This document shows positions 26,064-50,864 of a stretch of DNA of 64,000 nucleotides, piece after piece. The translations under genes were made by a program, and so were the position numbers. Source of the stretch: Blepharisma japonicum (lineage: Eukaryota > Ciliophora > Heterotrichea > Heterotrichida > Blepharismidae). The notes beneath the pieces are model-generated. The model worked only from the letters and a program-made list of their open reading frames with translations, ran no database searches and was not told where the DNA came from. How positions within the stretch are numbered: position 1 is the first letter of the stretch; every line of letters begins with the position of its first letter. The stretch is from assembly GCA_949751835.1 (NCBI GenBank), contig CATKHK010000049.1, positions 124,001-188,000 of the forward strand, in the 5' to 3' direction.

Positions 26064-27053
26064 CTACTTTATTATTTTTATGGAATTAAGCTTGTTTAGA
26101 ACTCTTTTTTCTGATTTTTTGTCTCTTATATAATTATAAAACAACTCATGAATTGGGTTTCCATAACTCTCTGGCATCTCTAATCAAGGTTTATCCATGG
26201 TTGTTATATCAATATTTTCAACAAAATCAATCAAAGTAGGGTCTGAATCATGTCTCTTCATTTCTTCAAGCAGAAATTCTTTATTTCGTTTTCTAAATAA
26301 TACCAAAGCTTCATCAACCATATATCTATAAACAATTTTTCTATTTCAAGTACCTACTCCAAATTTCAGTTGCAGAAGATTAGTGTTTATGCCATAAACT
26401 GCCTCAACTTCCGATTTATACATTTGCTCAAATCTTTTAAGTTTTTTGCAATTTTCACAGATAGGCTTTAAAAGTAATGGACATCTATAGAATTTGTCTT
26501 GAGATTGATGTGAATGGCACCAAAAACATGACTCCATTCTAAGAATTACATATTGTGTCCTGTAATTCTTTTTCTGCTCATCCAGTACAACATTTGTATA
26601 ATCCCTTATACAAAAAAAGTGCCACAATTCTTCGTCTCATGAAATATGGTAAAATTCTTTATTCACATGAGAATAGACTTTAAACAATTCTACTGCATCA
26701 AGGAATTTAAATATTTCGACTCAGGCTCTTCTGTATTTGGAAGGAGTCGATTCTACAAGCTTAGAAAAAGCTGGAGGATCATGAAAAGCTTTGTCTAAGG
26801 GTGTATAGTTTTTATTTCAATCATCAAGTCACGCATCAAGAATTTTAGTATTTTCAGGGTCTAAGGTGATCCCCAAATCATTTTTAGAAATATACTGCTT
26901 GATTTTTGGGGTATAACATTTTAAGTGATAATAGTCATAATGATCCATTAAGTGAATTTTAATTCTTATGGTCCCTCTCTCTATGCTTTCCTTGCATGTT
27001 TTGCATTTTGTATCTCTTTTGCTTATTTCTGCTTGAAATGAAGTCCTTTTCAT
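26064..27053 (-). CDS. PARP-zinc-finger/F-box/XPA-like protein, copy A
   Basis: A 329-residue frame with six or more TGA-coded Trp. Three modules are in order: a PARP-type zinc finger (about 10-55; C-x2-C ... H-x2-C, KCKTCKES ... YYHLKC), an F-box (about 105-155; EIFKFLDAVELFKVYSHVNK, then WDEELWHFFCIRDY), and a cysteine module (about 170-265; CFWCH ... CPL ... CENCKK) followed by a helical part resembling the XPA DNA-binding domain. F-box proteins recruit substrates to SCF ubiquitin ligases; PARP fingers and XPA recognise damaged DNA. The start is set by alignment with copies B-D, although the frame stays open about 78 codons upstream without another ATG. Confidence 0.82.
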
Positions 27054-27492
27054 TTTTTGGCTATTAATTAGAATGTATTTCAATAAATCAAGATGTAATA
27101 ACTTTTCATTTGAATAAATTATATTATTTGTTGCATCATGATGCAATAATATTGAGTCTGTTAAAAAATTTTCTAGCCCAAAATGATGATTTTTGAGTGT
27201 TTTACAATTACTTAATGTATAAGGATTTTTAATGAGGTATTGTTGAGTGAAAATTTCTTGAAATACTCTTAGATCGTTGTCTAATTAAGACATTTTATCT
27301 AGCATAGCTATCTTTGTCCTAATTCAAGAACTTTTGATCATGTTTTACACTACAAAAGGACTAAGTAAAATTGAAATTTAATATTCCAAAAAATATCGAA
27401 GTCCAAATTGGCCTCCATTGAAAAGAGCAATAACCCAAATTGCAGACGTGAAAGCCTATCAATAAGGAGAAGTAAGCTATTAATTATTTTAA
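27054..27492. other. Spacer upstream of copy A with a decayed gene fragment
   Basis: The part next to copy A resembles the upstream regions of copies B and C, so it is probably the shared promoter. From about 27360 to 27475 the plus strand resembles a decayed piece of the 24657-26033 gene: it shares the run TTGAAAAGAGCAA in matching context. It has no intact frame. Confidence 0.5.
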
Positions 27493-27681
27493 TTAATCTT
27501 TAGTAGATCTAAGCTTATTTAAGAGTCTTTTTTCTGGTATTCCCATTTTTATGTATAAAATTTCATGAATTGGCAGAAGAATCAGATTTTCTGAGCTTTT
27601 TAATATCTCTGATCAAGGTTTATTCATGGTTGTTATATCGATATTTTCAACAAAATCAATTAAAGCAGGATCTAAATTAAA
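27493..27681 (-). pseudogene. Truncated F-box-family copy, C-terminal end only
   Basis: Only the last 60 or so codons of the family are present (ALIDFVENIDITTMNKPW, then SEILKSSENLILLPIHE), ending at TAA 27493. No zinc finger, F-box or start precedes it; upstream sequence switches directly to the decayed fragment repeated elsewhere in the array. It preserves the uninterrupted form of the site (TA at 27621-27622) at which copy B carries a 114-bp insertion. Confidence 0.75.
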
Positions 27682-27780
27682 TATTCTAAAAACTTGTAGT
27701 CCATCTCGTCTTCATTAAAAAAGTAAGTGCTCAAATCGGAGAATTATGAGCCTAACAATAAAGGAGGAGTTAGACTAGTA
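27682..27780 (+). repeat. Second decayed fragment related to the 24657-26033 gene
   Basis: It closely resembles the fragment at about 29090-29215 (shared blocks around TATTCTAAAAACTTGTAGTC and the ending ATAAAGGAGGAGTTAG) and less closely the one at 27360-27475. It has no open frame and sits just downstream of copy B. Confidence 0.6.
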
Positions 27781-27786
27781 ATTATT

Positions 27787-28899
27787 TTAATTAATTTTAT
27801 GTAGGTTAAGCTTGTTTAAAAGCTTCTTTTCTGATTTTCTGTCTTTTATATAGTTATAAATCTTCTCATGAATAGGCAGAATAATCAGATTTTCTGAGCT
27901 TTTTAATATCTCTGATCAAGGTTTATGCTGACAATATTTAAAATAATTCTTTAAATTGCCATAAATCTTAATTACGTAGAAAATGATAGTAGTTTACATT
28001 GTAAAATCATTGATTTTCAATTCAATTTTAAGTGGAATATTCATGGTCGTTGTATCGATATTTTCAGTAAAATCAATTAAAGTAGGGTCTAAATTATTTT
28101 TATTCATTTCTTTAAGCAAAAATTCTTTATTTCGTTTTCTAAAAGATTGGAGAGCTTCATCAATCATATACCTATAAACAACTTTTGCATTTGAATAGCC
28201 TATTCCAAATTTAAGCCCAAGAAGATTAGGATTTATTCCATACTGTAATTCGATTTGAGACTTGTGGAGCCGCTCAAATCCTTTAAGTTGCTTGCAATTT
28301 TCACATATTGGCTTTCCAAGTAGTGGACACCTATTGAATTTTCCTTGAGCTTGATACGCATGACACCAAAAGCATGATTCCATTCTAAGAATTATATATT
28401 GTGTTCTATAATTCTTTTTCTTATCATCCAGCACAACATTTATATAGTCTCTTACACAGTAAAAATGCCACAATTCTTCATCTCATGAAATATGATAGAA
28501 TTCTTTATTCACATGAGAATAGATCTTAAATAATTCTACTGCATCAAGGAATTTAAATATTTCTAGCCATGCTCTTCTGTATCTAGAAGGAGCTGTTTCT
28601 ACAAGTTTAGAATAAATTGGAGGTTCATGGAAAGGTTTATCTAAAGGTACATAATTTTTATTCCAGTCATCAAGTCATGCATTGAGAATTTTAGCATTTT
28701 CTGGATCTAAACTAATTTTTAAATCATTTTTAGATATATACTGCTTGATCTTTGGGGTATAGCAGTTGAGGTGGTAGTAATCAAAATGATCATACGAATG
28801 GATTTTAATTCTTAAGATCCCTAGATCTATTTTGCTCTCGCATGTCTTACAATACGTATGTCTTCTACTAATCTCTGCTTGGAATGAGATCTTTTTCAT
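27787..28899 (-). CDS. PARP-zinc-finger/F-box/XPA-like protein, copy B (interrupted)
   Basis: As found, the frame runs from ATG 28899 to a premature TAA at 27994 (301 residues), with an unrelated 15-residue ending. Leaving out 27926-28039 gives 332 residues that end at TAA 27787 like copies C and D, with the family tail (LIILPIHEKIYNYIKDRK). All three modules are intact: PARP finger (YCKTCESK ... YYHLNC), F-box, and cysteine/XPA-like module (CFWCH ... CENCKQ). The tryptophan after LGLKFGIGY in the others is Ser here. Whether the somatic gene makes the short or full form depends on whether the insertion is removed. Confidence 0.8.
27926..28039. mobile_element. TA-bounded 114-bp insertion, candidate retained IES
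   Basis: The insertion lies between TA at 27924-27925 and TA at 28038-28039. Dropping it with one TA rebuilds the exact sequence found in the truncated copy (TA at 27621-27622) and restores the family reading frame. Its ends do not follow GT...AG on the gene strand, so it is not an intron. A TA target duplication and precise reconstruction fit internal eliminated sequences of ciliates. End inverted repeats are weak (TATGC versus TATTC). It is AT-rich and non-coding. Confidence 0.6.
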
Positions 28900-29223
28900 T
28901 TTTTCAATTTAATTTTTAACAGAATTGAATAGAATTGATTTCAATAAATCAAAAGAGCAGTAATCTATAGTTAAGAATAATTATATTGTTTATAGAGCCG
29001 TTGAATGAAGATGTATAGACTTAAATTTTGCTTAAGTAGAGTGACCATACCAAAGGCTCCCCTAAATATAAAATTATCAAAAACCAGATACAACAATTAA
29101 ATAAAATCTAAATTCAATATTCTAAAAACTTGTAGTCTATCTAGCCTTCATTAAAAAAAGCAAGTGCCCAAATCGAAGAATTATGAGCCTATCAATAAAG
29201 GAGGAGTTAGTATAGTAATTATT
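28900..29223. other. Spacer upstream of copy B with third decayed fragment
   Basis: Bases 28900-28985 resemble the upstream regions of copies A and C. Bases about 29090-29215 are the third fragment related to the 24657-26033 gene. No intact frame or RNA gene is seen. Confidence 0.5.
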
Positions 29224-30222
29224 TTAATTAATTTTATGTAGATTAAGCTTGTTTAAAAGATTTTTTTCTGATTTTCTGTCTTTTATGTAGTTATAAATCT
29301 TCTCATGAATAGGCAAAATAATCAGATTTTCTGAGCTTTGTAAAATCTCTGATAAAGGCTTATCTATTTTCGTTATATCAATATTTTCAGTAAAATCAAT
29401 CAAAGTAGGGTCTAAATTATTTTTATTCATTTCTTCAAGCAGAAATTCTTTATTTCGTTTTCTGAAAGATTCGAGGGCTTCTTCAACCATATACCTGTAA
29501 ACAACTTTTTTATTTCAATAGCCTAAACCAAATTTCAGCTCCAGAAGATTAGGATTTATCCCATACCGTGCTTCGATTTGTGACTTATGCAATTGCTCAA
29601 ATCTTTTAAGCTTTTTGCAATTTTCACATATTGGCTTTCCAAGTAGTGGACACCTATTGAATTTTCCTTGAGCTTGATGTGCATGGCACCAAAAGCATGA
29701 CTCCATTCTAAGAATTATATACTGTGTTCTATAATTCTTTTTCTGATCATCCAGCGCAACATTTATATAGTCTCTTACACAGTAAAAATGCCACAATTCT
29801 TCATCTCATGAAATGTGATAGAATTCTTTATTCACATGAGAATAGATCTTAAATAATTCTACAGCATCAAGGAATTTAAATATTTCTAGCCATGCTCTTC
29901 TGTATCTAGAAGGAGCTGTTTCTACAAGTTTAGAAAATGTTGGAGGCTCATGGAAAGGTTTATCTAGAGGTACATAATTTTTATTCCAGTCATCAAGCCA
30001 CGTATTGAGAATTTTAGCATTTTCTGGGTCTAAATTAATGCCTAAATCACTTTTAGAAATATACTGTTTGATCTTTGGGGTATAGCAGCCGAAGTGATAG
30101 TAATCAAAATGATCATAAGAGTGGATTTTAATTCTTATAATTCCTATATCTATGTTTTTCATGCATGTTTTACATTTTGTATGTCTTTTACTAATCTCTG
30201 CTTGGAATGAAGTCTTTTTCAT
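29224..30222 (-). CDS. PARP-zinc-finger/F-box/XPA-like protein, copy C
   Basis: A complete 332-residue member, with Trp coded TGA at several conserved positions. Zinc ligands of the PARP-type finger are Cys17, Cys20, His43 and Cys46. The F-box lies at about residues 108-155, and WDEELWHFYCVRDY is its typical end. The cysteine module uses Cys176, Cys179, Cys191, Cys199 and Cys202. Residues 203-265 (LHKSQIEARYGINPNLLELK, then YRYMVEEALESFRKRNKE) resemble the XPA C-terminal DNA-binding fold. Copies B and C are the most similar pair. Confidence 0.83.
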
Positions 30223-30394
30223 TTTTTCGATTTAATTATTAACAGAATTGAATAGAATTGATTTAATAAATCCAAATAACCTTAATTTCTTAAGTTGAGA
30301 ATAATTATATTGCTTATTGCATCAAGAGAGATAGCAAATAGACCTTTGAAAATTTTGCTTAGCTATTTTAACTTTTAATGTTTTTAATAAGCTA

Positions 30395-31393
30395 CTATTT
30401 ATGAGCTTTTAGATTTCTTAGAACTCTCTTTTCATATACCTTGTCTCTCACATAATTATATATCGACTCGCACACTGGCCTTAAAGATTCTGCTAAATTT
30501 ATATCTATCTTTCATTTTAGGTCAAAACTAAACATATTTTTTATATCAATATTTTCAAGAAACTCAATCAAATCTGAGTTTGAATTATTTTCCTTCATTT
30601 TTTCAAGTAAAAATTCTTTATTTCGTTTTCTAAATGACTCCACTGCTTCTTCAGCCATATATCTATAGACAACCTTATTACCCCAGCATCCTTCACCAAA
30701 ATTCAGTTGTAAAACATTAGGATTTATTCCTCATTTATCCTGAATGTCTTGCTTACACATATATTTAAATCTGTCAAGTTTTTTGCAGCTATCACATATT
30801 GGTTTTTTTATTAATGGACACCTTTTAAAGTTTCCTTCAGTTTGGCGCGCATGGCATCAGAAGCACGATTCCATATATATGATCACATATTGTGCGCGGT
30901 AATTTTTTTTCTGGTCATCTAGTATAGAATTTGCATAATCTCTCAGACAGTAAAAATGCCACAATTCTTGATCTCACGATATGTGGTAAAATTCTTTGTT
31001 TACATAACAGTAAAGTTTGAAAACTTCTACTGCATCAAGAAATTTAAATATTTCGAGCCAAGCTCTTCTATATTTAGAAGGAGTAGATTCCACAAGCTTA
31101 GAAAATTGTGGAGGCTCACGAAAAGGTTTATCGAGTGGCATATAATCTTTGTTTCAGTCTTCAATCCAATTATTGATAATTTCAGAATTTGCTGAATCTA
31201 AGCGAATTTTTATATCATTTTTACAAATATATTGTTTAACCTTTGGGGTGTAGCATTTAAAGTGGTAATACTCCAATTTCTGGTAACCCGGAACTTTGAT
31301 TCTTATTGCTCCAATAGGTATGACTCCGCCGCATACTCTACAAATTGATTCTTTTCTTATAGGAGTATCAACTTGAAATACATTTTTCCTCAT
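30395..31393 (-). CDS. PARP-zinc-finger/F-box/XPA-like protein, copy D (divergent)
   Basis: Also 332 residues, with the same module order, but the most diverged member: the N-terminus is MRKNVFQVDTPIRKESICRV, and the finger is CRVCGGV ... YYHFKC. The F-box (EIFKFLDAVEVFKLYCYVNK) and the cysteine module (CFWCHARQ ... CPLIKKPICDSCKK) keep all ligands. TGA is used for Trp at least six times. It is the outermost copy, probably the oldest, and lacks an adjacent decayed gene fragment. Confidence 0.82.
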
Positions 31394-31503: not shown

Positions 31504-32643
31504 TTAAGCATAAGCTAAAAGAGATAATGAAAATCCTAATAAAATAGCTGAGGATGTATCATCATGGTCGTCAGGATCAGTAGTATTACGAAGTGCATTA
31601 TAAGCTTTTTGCACTTCAAAATACTGACTTAAAAATATATTTTGAGTGCACTCATCAGTCATCTGAAGATAAGGCCAGTTATTTGTCTTCAGGCTGAAAT
31701 AATTCAAAAGTGTTACATCATTGGAATCCCACCAGTCAGTCACACACTTCATATTATATCTTCTTAATGTATTGCATTTGTCTACATTAGTTGAAAGAAC
31801 CCACTTTTTCCACATTTGTACGAGGTGGGTGAAGTCTGGATCTCCAGGCCATTGGTTGCAGAAGCTATAGCCATGCTTATTGAGTCCGCAAACGCAATCT
31901 AGTGTATAGTAGTAGCCAGTTCCTGGATCGACAGTTGATTTACATTCTGCGTTATTCTGGCACATAATAGGTAATAGTTTTCCTGTCTCGGACGCTACAG
32001 AGCTCAAACAGATAGGCTCTCCAGCACCATTAGTATCGCACATAGTAGAAGCACATAAATAATTATCCAAAGTGTCGTTACAATGAGCTAAACGAGCACT
32101 ATCAGAAACGCTGAAAAAGGTAACACATGTACCATAAGTGGCTGTGCTTGTAATGTTGCAGCCAGCGCCATTAACGCATTGGAAATCATTCTCGCATTCG
32201 CCACCTACTTTTACTTGGGAAACACATTTTCCTTCTGAGCTACAGTAAAGTCCTGGGTTGCATTCACCATAATGTGTACAGTTTCCGTTAGCGCTTACAC
32301 CTTGGCAGGTACCGCTGACACATCCACCGGTTGCATAAGTCGCGTCACAGTCAGAGGTTGCTGTGCATTTTTCGCCTGGATATTTATTTAAAGCGGTTGG
32401 GGTTGTTTCACAAGTAGAATTGGCTGGGTCTTCGAAGTCAACGAGTGGGCAGTATGAAGTTGAGCTGCAAGCCTCTAAATAATATATGCTTGCTGTTTTA
32501 TCCCAATATGCGCAGGTTTCTGAAGTAAAAGTCTGAGTACTCAGCTTGCATTCGACTGGATAACATACAGTGTCTGCTGCTAAACCTATTGTAGCGAGAA
32601 AACAGAGAGATAAGAACAATTTTTTCATTTGTTCGACAGCCAT
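31504..32643 (-). CDS. Cysteine-rich secreted/GPI-anchored surface protein 1
   Basis: A 379-residue protein. A signal peptide follows Met6 (MKKLFLSLCFLATIGLAA). The body holds about 35 Cys in small disulfide-type repeats (GECNPGLYCSSEGKCV, ECENDFQCVNGAGC). The C-terminus ends in a hydrophobic stretch (ILLGFSLSLLAYA) after an Asp/Ser-rich spacer, which fits a GPI-anchor signal. It shares the Cys pattern and the block CNTLRRYNMKC with the protein at 49818-50864. It is probably displayed on the cell surface; function unknown. The first ATG at 32643 adds five residues before the signal. Confidence 0.82.
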   Translation of the reverse strand: MAVEQMKKLFLSLCFLATIGLAADTVCYPVECKLSTQTFTSETCAYWDKTASIYYLEACSSTSYCPLVDFEDPANSTCETTPTALNKYPGEKCTATSDCDATYATGGCVSGTCQGVSANGNCTHYGECNPGLYCSSEGKCVSQVKVGGECENDFQCVNGAGCNITSTATYGTCVTFFSVSDSARLAHCNDTLDNYLCASTMCDTNGAGEPICLSSVASETGKLLPIMCQNNAECKSTVDPGTGYYYTLDCVCGLNKHGYSFCNQWPGDPDFTHLVQMWKKWVLSTNVDKCNTLRRYNMKCVTDWWDSNDVTLLNYFSLKTNNWPYLQMTDECTQNIFLSQYFEVQKAYNALRNTTDPDDHDDTSSAILLGFSLSLLAYA

Positions 32644-49817: not shown

Positions 49818-50864
49818 TTATATGATAGCTCCATATAACGCCATCCCAATACAAATCCACAAACTGTTGCTATTTCTATCACTGACTTCAGCACTATAAG
49901 TTGGGAATATTATATCTAGCGCGCAATCATCAACTTTTTGGACTTGTGGGTAATAATTCACTTTATAAGAGTAATAGTCAAACTCTTCAGCTGCATCATT
50001 CCCCAGCATTGTTTGGACACACCCTGTGCTCCATCTCCTCATCGTATTACAATTTAACGCGTTTTTGCTTGAAATCCATTTTTTATAAATTTTCATCAAA
50101 TCTTGAAAAGCATCATCCCCTGGGAATAATGTGCAATAAGATAAGCCATTCCTCCCATAGCCGCATTGGCAAGTTGTGTAAAGTGTGATTCCTTGGCTTG
50201 CCAATTCATGAGAAACACAGTCAGAATTTGAGTAGCAATTTTGAGGTATTTTTTGAGAATTTTTAATAGCTGGCTGACAAAGCCCATAAACACAAAACCC
50301 ACTGTCACAAATTTGTGATTGAGAGTTTTCACACATATCGACCCAGTCTCCATTCCCTACACTGTAATATTCTCTGCAGGTATTAATATCGCACCCTGCA
50401 TTATTGACACAATCATAATCATTTACACAGCCAGTTTGGTTTACAGCGATTTGATTTACACATTTTCCATTACTACAGCGTAAGCCTTTATTACATTCCC
50501 CATGGTTTTGACAATTACTTCCATATTCCTGCCCATAGCAAAGACCATTTGTACAAACCCCATATTTGCACCAAGAATTGTCTTCACAGTATTCTCCTGG
50601 ATAAGCGACTTGATAAGTAGGAGATAGAGGGGTTGTACAAGTCTGGTTAAGTAAATTGAACACAGGTGGACAATATAGGTTTGGAGAATTTGTGCATTCT
50701 TGCAAATAATATGCTTCTCCACCATAATAAATGCAGGTATTTGGGTTCATTGGCTTTGTGCCCCCACAGATGTACTTTTGGCAGTTCAGACTTTGTAGGT
50801 TTGCCTCTGTCTTTAAAGATAATTCTGGAAATGCAGCAACTCCAAGAAATAAAAACAGGAGCAT
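49818..50864 (-). CDS. Cysteine-rich secreted/GPI-anchored surface protein 2
   Basis: A 348-residue paralogue of the protein at 31504-32643. The signal peptide is MLLFLFLGVAAF. Cys repeats match in order (YPGEYCEDNSWCKYGVC, HGECNKGLRCSNGKCV, CVNDYDCVNNAGCDI), and both share a block ending in CNTMRRWSTGC. A hydrophobic end (LWICIGMALYGAII) fits a GPI signal. The first 60 residues differ most between the two. It is probably a surface-coat protein. Confidence 0.82.
   Translation of the reverse strand: MLLFLFLGVAAFPELSLKTEANLQSLNCQKYICGGTKPMNPNTCIYYGGEAYYLQECTNSPNLYCPPVFNLLNQTCTTPLSPTYQVAYPGEYCEDNSWCKYGVCTNGLCYGQEYGSNCQNHGECNKGLRCSNGKCVNQIAVNQTGCVNDYDCVNNAGCDINTCREYYSVGNGDWVDMCENSQSQICDSGFCVYGLCQPAIKNSQKIPQNCYSNSDCVSHELASQGITLYTTCQCGYGRNGLSYCTLFPGDDAFQDLMKIYKKWISSKNALNCNTMRRWSTGCVQTMLGNDAAEEFDYYSYKVNYYPQVQKVDDCALDIIFPTYSAEVSDRNSNSLWICIGMALYGAII

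Follow-up and report, generated by a model that had tools for sequence, protein, structure and literature searches.

Candidate F-box receptors with PARP-type and XPA-like zinc modules form an expanded gene family in Blepharisma japonicum

In the accessible excerpts of the articles cited here, PARP1 fingers are described as gripping a DNA break via R18 and via F44 of a base-stacking loop, with the R18 grip as the key part and the loop contributing modestly (PMC8150716). XPA works with a hairpin at a DNA junction, and RPA domains lie on either side of its wedged-in zinc finger (PMC11445577). Many eukaryotes have no recognisable XPA, for reasons treated as an open question, and a clade of F-box proteins with XPA_N/XPA_C matches was met during the phylogeny of XPA and set aside as remote homologs with a poor alignment and without the conserved cysteines (PMC10810185). 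In a trypanosome, zf-PARP is listed beside RING ligases and, in the excerpt available, not with F-box proteins (PMC5976635). Here, we analyze a 64,000-nucleotide stretch of the Blepharisma japonicum genome (the window; assembly GCA_949751835.1, contig CATKHK010000049.1, positions 124,001 to 188,000) in which four minus-strand open reading frames (ORFs), spanning 26064-31393 with TGA read as Trp (table 4), each combine a PARP-type zinc finger, an F-box and an XPA-like zinc module. The initial annotation, made from the sequence alone, knew of no described family with this architecture, and the full order was likewise not found among the literature matches listed, whose coverage is without most subscription journals. 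Nothing on F-box proteins in ciliates was found among the matches listed for F-box, heterotrichs and gene family expansion.

We predict that the window genes encode F-box substrate receptors of Skp1-Cul1-F-box (SCF)-type ubiquitin ligases, members of an expanded family in which the zinc modules form the target-binding part; judging from sequence, we put the probability of this reading at about 0.62. The F-box would hold Skp1-Cul1, while the N-terminal PARP-type C2HC finger and the C-terminal XPA-like C4 module with its basic helical region would bind the target, for which a protein, alone or on nucleic acid, is the most likely candidate. In each window gene, the motif C-x2-C...H-x2-C is followed by an F-box-like stretch and then by C-x2-C...C-x2-C, and all four have a helix-like stretch, K-x-x-(I/V)-x-x-x-(Y/W), after the second cysteine module. 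A profile of 22 family members (A2), searched against all PDB sequences, matched PARP1 (E-value 2.2e-6, profile positions 7-63), the KDM2A F-box (3.4e-5, positions 108-158), RAD14 (0.0014, positions 174-224) and XPA (0.0021, positions 173-232). Because of these matches, which follow the order of the protein, the module assignments are not attributable to chance, and the three modules named in the initial annotation were correctly called at the level of sequence homology. Against Pfam at an E-value of 1 or less, 20 of the 22 members matched F-box-like (best 1.2e-8), 15 matched F-box and 11 matched zf-PARP; no XPA family was among the best 25 of the 27 Pfam families for these members. Matches to EDS1_EP and RE_Eco47II (two and one of the 22 members, respectively) fell below the cut-off and were judged to be chance, as was the one NCBIfam match, and profile matches to pannexin and pentatricopeptide proteins were rejected at E-values of 0.045 or worse. 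A viral origin was also rejected: an A2 scan of viral contigs gave 21 pattern matches, none of them confirmed, and tblastn of the gene 3 protein (P0003) against phage records gave none.

The family extends well beyond the window. In a six-frame search of the genome (45,185,585 bases in 224 contigs), made one exon at a time, gene 3 gave 29 matches, and the family comprises at least 25 loci. Four are in the window and 21 outside it, with five of the outside loci on one contig (C6). For this count, split matches were merged, a match on contig C89 without the first finger was excluded, and a locus on contig C44 found with L025 was added; counts for large families are lower bounds. The 22 rows of A2 omit L024, L032/L034, the C44 copy (L081), L029, L030, L036, L037, L044 and L047, and include only the first part of L023; the profile of the XPA-like module (A3) has 20 rows (A2 minus L031 and L035) and that of the finger (A4) has 17 (A2 minus L015, L028, L031, L033 and L035). 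Six zinc ligands (H43, C46, C176, C179, C199 and C202, in gene 3 numbering) are invariant in all 22 aligned members, and 21 members keep all eight, including C17 and C20. The remaining member, L015, lacks only C17 and C20, and its CxxC sits in another frame. Since only five of 19 inner branches were well supported in a tree of the 22 members, we claim no deeper family history.

Divergence among the copies is uneven along the protein. The ratio of nonsynonymous (dN) to synonymous (dS) divergence, calculated over whole genes for 11 pairs selected from a possible 231, was 0.14-0.36 in 10 pairs and 0.59 in the other (L019/L020); of the six window pairs, the five that were tested gave 0.20-0.34. 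These values reflect purifying selection. Mean pairwise identity was highest of the seven segments in the F-box (0.48), compared to 0.31 in the finger and 0.32 in the XPA zinc part (231 pairs each) and 0.19 in the tail (230 pairs). Likewise, dN was lowest in the F-box in four of five pairs; between genes 3 and 4, the F-box value of 0.064 compares with 0.487 for the finger and 0.626 for the tail. A fixed F-box coupled with a drifting finger and tail is the pattern of substrate receptors, in which the ligase part is constant and the target parts change. The A2 profile also matches GID2, SKP2 and FBXW chains, and the Skp1 domain (PF01466) has 12 matches in the genome, all above the cut-off. On contig C87 at 7.5-29 kb (L048-L050), at least nine F-box genes stand in tandem and have a long C-terminal part in common; this array looked related at first but is another family. 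The 3' part of one copy in that array follows a papain-type protease-like stretch in a single open frame, as judged by eye.

The finger is homologous to those of PARP1 but differs where PARP1 contacts a break. The A4 profile matched PARP1 at 2e-9 summed over two PARP1 fingers (0.0025 for the better finger alone), single-finger PARP1 chains at 1.9e-4 to 3.8e-4, and ligase III at 0.01. Six residues are missing from the family finger at FDGKVP, the PARP1 segment that bears F44, and the finger loop is 18-25 residues long in the 21 members with both loop ends, compared to 28 counted in PARP1. Five of 21 members, but no window gene (zero of four), have lysine or arginine at the R18 position. Because the window genes have neither the F44 base-stacking segment nor the R18 grip, PARP1-like sensing of breaks by their finger is unlikely. 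Genome-wide, zf-PARP gave six matches at an E-value of 0.001 or less, all in the F-box family and one of them above the cut-off. PARP catalytic domains have 12 matches in the genome, all at places other than the zf-PARP matches.

The second zinc module resembles a part of XPA and RAD14 in sequence. RAD14 and XPA chains filled the first nine of 23 rows in the A3 profile search, with E-values of 3.4e-5 for RAD14 and 5.5e-4 for XPA. The match covers 50-60 residues, the zinc site and the first helix, and ends before the hairpin. No window protein matched an XPA family in Pfam at an E-value of 10 or less, and a phmmer search of PDB with one member (L081) returned no match at an E-value of 1 or less; it is thus through profiles that the zinc-fingered family is linked to XPA. 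The link is firmer through three sister genes, L044 (contig C37), L037 (C89) and L047 (C24), which have an F-box and an XPA-like module without the first finger; zf-PARP was not found in them at an E-value of 1 or less. L044 (the same gene as L045) is the only place in the genome reached by XPA_C, the domain that includes the hairpin, at an E-value of 0.001 or less (33.7 bits, cut-off 25). Its protein scores 30.9 bits for XPA_C and a weak 17.7 bits for F-box-like (cut-off 24.3), and as a single sequence it aligns, at residues 170-250, with an 85-residue stretch of the RAD14 DNA-binding domain (5.7e-6). L037 and L047 are above the F-box-like cut-off and have a cysteine module of the same kind. 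A profile of the three sister modules matched RAD14 at 9.3e-8, and hhalign matched it to the window-family module at 96.6% (6.5e-10, 53 columns). The best genome-wide XPA_N match reached 17.1 bits (cut-off 27.1), at places outside the window family. These searches do not prove that XPA is absent from the genome, because BHD_3, a control for an XPC domain, also gave no match, here or in control genomes.

Several observations weigh against the receptor reading. Singly, all four window proteins fall under the Pfam curated cut-offs, with 16.4-25.8 bits for zf-PARP (cut-off 39.3) and 17-23.9 bits for F-box-like (cut-off 24.3). The A4 profile also matches LIM domains, at 0.019 and weaker; we rejected a LIM identity for the finger as these matches are poorer than those to PARP1. 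Two loci outside A2, L024 and L034, have lost one cysteine of the second zinc module, with C-I-W-F in place of CxxC. In one of the five pairs examined by segment (L014/L015), the lowest dN was not in the F-box. In addition, some F-box proteins act outside SCF complexes. As a separate observation, the reading frames of L024 and L034, and of L023 on the same contig (C6), extend into a GTPase of Ras type (Pfam Ras 9.7e-21, 3.7e-21 and 2.8e-47, respectively); the three are apparent fusions of finger, F-box and GTPase, with L034 holding the 3' part of its gene.

A tentative alternative is that the zinc modules no longer bind nucleic acid and are now platforms for protein interaction only. The placement of the XPA zinc finger between RPA domains (PMC11445577) is a precedent for such a role, and both the loss of the DNA-contact residues from the PARP-type finger and the faster divergence of finger and tail than of the F-box are in keeping with it. 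On the other hand, the XPA-like region has stayed basic in all four window proteins, with 18-20 lysines and arginines compared to 8-13 aspartates and glutamates. We consider it less likely still that the proteins detect lesions or breaks in DNA and, at these sites, attach ubiquitin to proteins of repair or chromatin, for repair of UV damage or for developmental genome editing. Each flanking module has its homolog in a DNA-binding part of PARP1 or XPA/RAD14, the sister L044 aligns to the RAD14 DNA-binding domain with a phenylalanine at what we take to be the position of hairpin residue F262, and 14 of the 22 members have a lysine at the position of RAD14 K229, presumably a DNA contact under that numbering. 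Set against these likenesses, which include the basic region, are the missing base-stacking segment, the R18 grip not kept in the window genes, the end of the match before the hairpin, and a tryptophan in only six of 22 members at the position aligned by eye with human W175. The modules are thus related in sequence to those of PARP1 and XPA, while the finger, at least, does not preserve the known damage contacts, and the step of the initial annotation to a DNA-lesion-sensing family finds no support in the sequence.

A bolder proposal, which strikes us as improbable, is that in this lineage the XPA module occurs only in F-box proteins, that F-box-XPA receptors, of which L044 is the most XPA-like, replaced XPA in excision repair, and that the PARP-fingered branch, to which all zf-PARP matches of the genome belong, diversified into nucleic-acid-guided ubiquitin ligase receptors. 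Least likely is a decaying expansion without present function, its array maintained by duplication, as might be read from the altered gene 2 with its adjoining partial copy and from the damaged copies elsewhere, but the dN/dS values given above (with L019/L020 at 0.59 as the exception) and the zinc ligands kept even at 21% identity to gene 3 argue against it. Damaged copies include L015 (a change of frame), L022/L036 (two overlapping frames) and the C44 copy (L081), broken after 260 amino acids; either real decay or assembly error could account for these apparent frameshifts and breaks.

The positions of the window genes and their modules are given in Table 1. Relative to gene 3, identity is 77% for gene 1, 84% for gene 2 and 60-62% for gene 4. 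W75, W79 and W111 of gene 1 are encoded by TGA where gene 3 has TGG, which supports the reading of TGA as Trp. The window has a G+C content of 26-40% per 2 kb; in AT-richness and in this code it is like Blepharisma stoltei, in which a genome of 41 Mb, compared to 45 Mb here, is 66% AT with UGA as Trp (PMC9942806). An octamer known as a telomere repeat of Blepharisma did not occur at five contig ends. The initial annotation described four intact genes in one orientation; the number, strand and exact span hold, but gene 2 has its tail cut off by a 114-bp insertion. A DNA search of the genome with this insertion returned a single match, itself. Since it is bounded by TA and similar in length to internal eliminated sequences (IESs) of B. 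stoltei, which are described as mostly short and TA-bound, with periodic ones of approximately 65 to 115 bp (PMC9942856), it may be an IES retained in the somatic genome; TA ends could also arise by chance. Between genes 2 and 3, synonymous divergence at residues 105-173 (F-box and spacer) is 0.06-0.08, compared to 0.29-0.57 in other segments, with few changes counted, a pattern as after gene conversion. By eye, two minus-strand ORFs at 31504-32643 and 49818-50864 are rich in cysteine, look related to each other and start with what resembles a signal peptide.

Table 1. Positions of the genes, modules and gene 2 alterations in the window
Feature	Position	Strand	Remarks
Gene 1 (P0001, 329 aa)	26064..27053	-	PARP-type C2HC finger, F-box and XPA-like C4 module
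Gene 2 (P0002, 301 aa)	27994..28899	-	three modules as in gene 1; C-terminal tail swapped for insertion sequence
Gene 3 (P0003, 332 aa)	29224..30222	-	intact; reference for residue numbering
Gene 4 (P0004, 332 aa)	30395..31393	-	intact; most diverged of the four window genes
PARP-type C2HC finger (C17, C20, H43, C46), gene 3 residues 14-50	30073..30183	-	A4 profile against PDB
F-box, gene 3 residues 105-148	29779..29910	-	A2 profile against PDB (KDM2A F-box, 3.4e-5)
XPA-like C4 zinc module (C176, C179, C199, C202) and helical stretch, gene 3 residues 165-268	29419..29730	-	A3 profile
114-bp insertion in gene 2	27926..28039		TA at both ends; in-frame stop; extra relative to neighbour genes
Severed normal tail of gene 2	27790..27927	-	91% identical to gene 3 residues 287-332
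Partial further copy, 3' end only	27505..27687	-	67% identical to gene 3 residues 266-328

If the flanking modules still touch nucleic acid, the family would be a large set of ubiquitin ligase receptors for targets bound to DNA or RNA, possibly in a type of organism whose own genome it cuts and joins again. Even if protein binding alone remains, repair-type zinc modules would have been recruited into a diversifying receptor family. An XPA hidden in an F-box protein, if true, would offer a testable answer to the missing XPA of many eukaryotes.

Compared to known systems, each module of the family has a recognizable counterpart in a different setting. KDM2A and other F-box proteins share with it a tryptophan ahead of the hydrophobic core of the F-box but differ in the flanking modules. 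PARP1 zinc finger 1 and the DNA ligase III finger (Pfam zf-PARP) have the C2HC pattern and flanking sequence in common with the family finger, which differs from PARP1 zinc finger 1 at the F44 segment and, in the window genes, at R18; the four window proteins gave no PARP match. With XPA and RAD14, the window module shares C-x2-C...C-x2-C and the helix that follows, whereas it sits behind an F-box and its likeness stops short of the hairpin. The closest described relative, as far as the excerpt goes, is the clade set aside in the phylogeny of XPA (PMC10810185), which likewise joins an F-box to an XPA-like module and into which the sister genes L044, L037 and L047 would fit. In contrast to that clade, the window family keeps its four module cysteines in 22 of 22 aligned members and carries a PARP-type finger in front.

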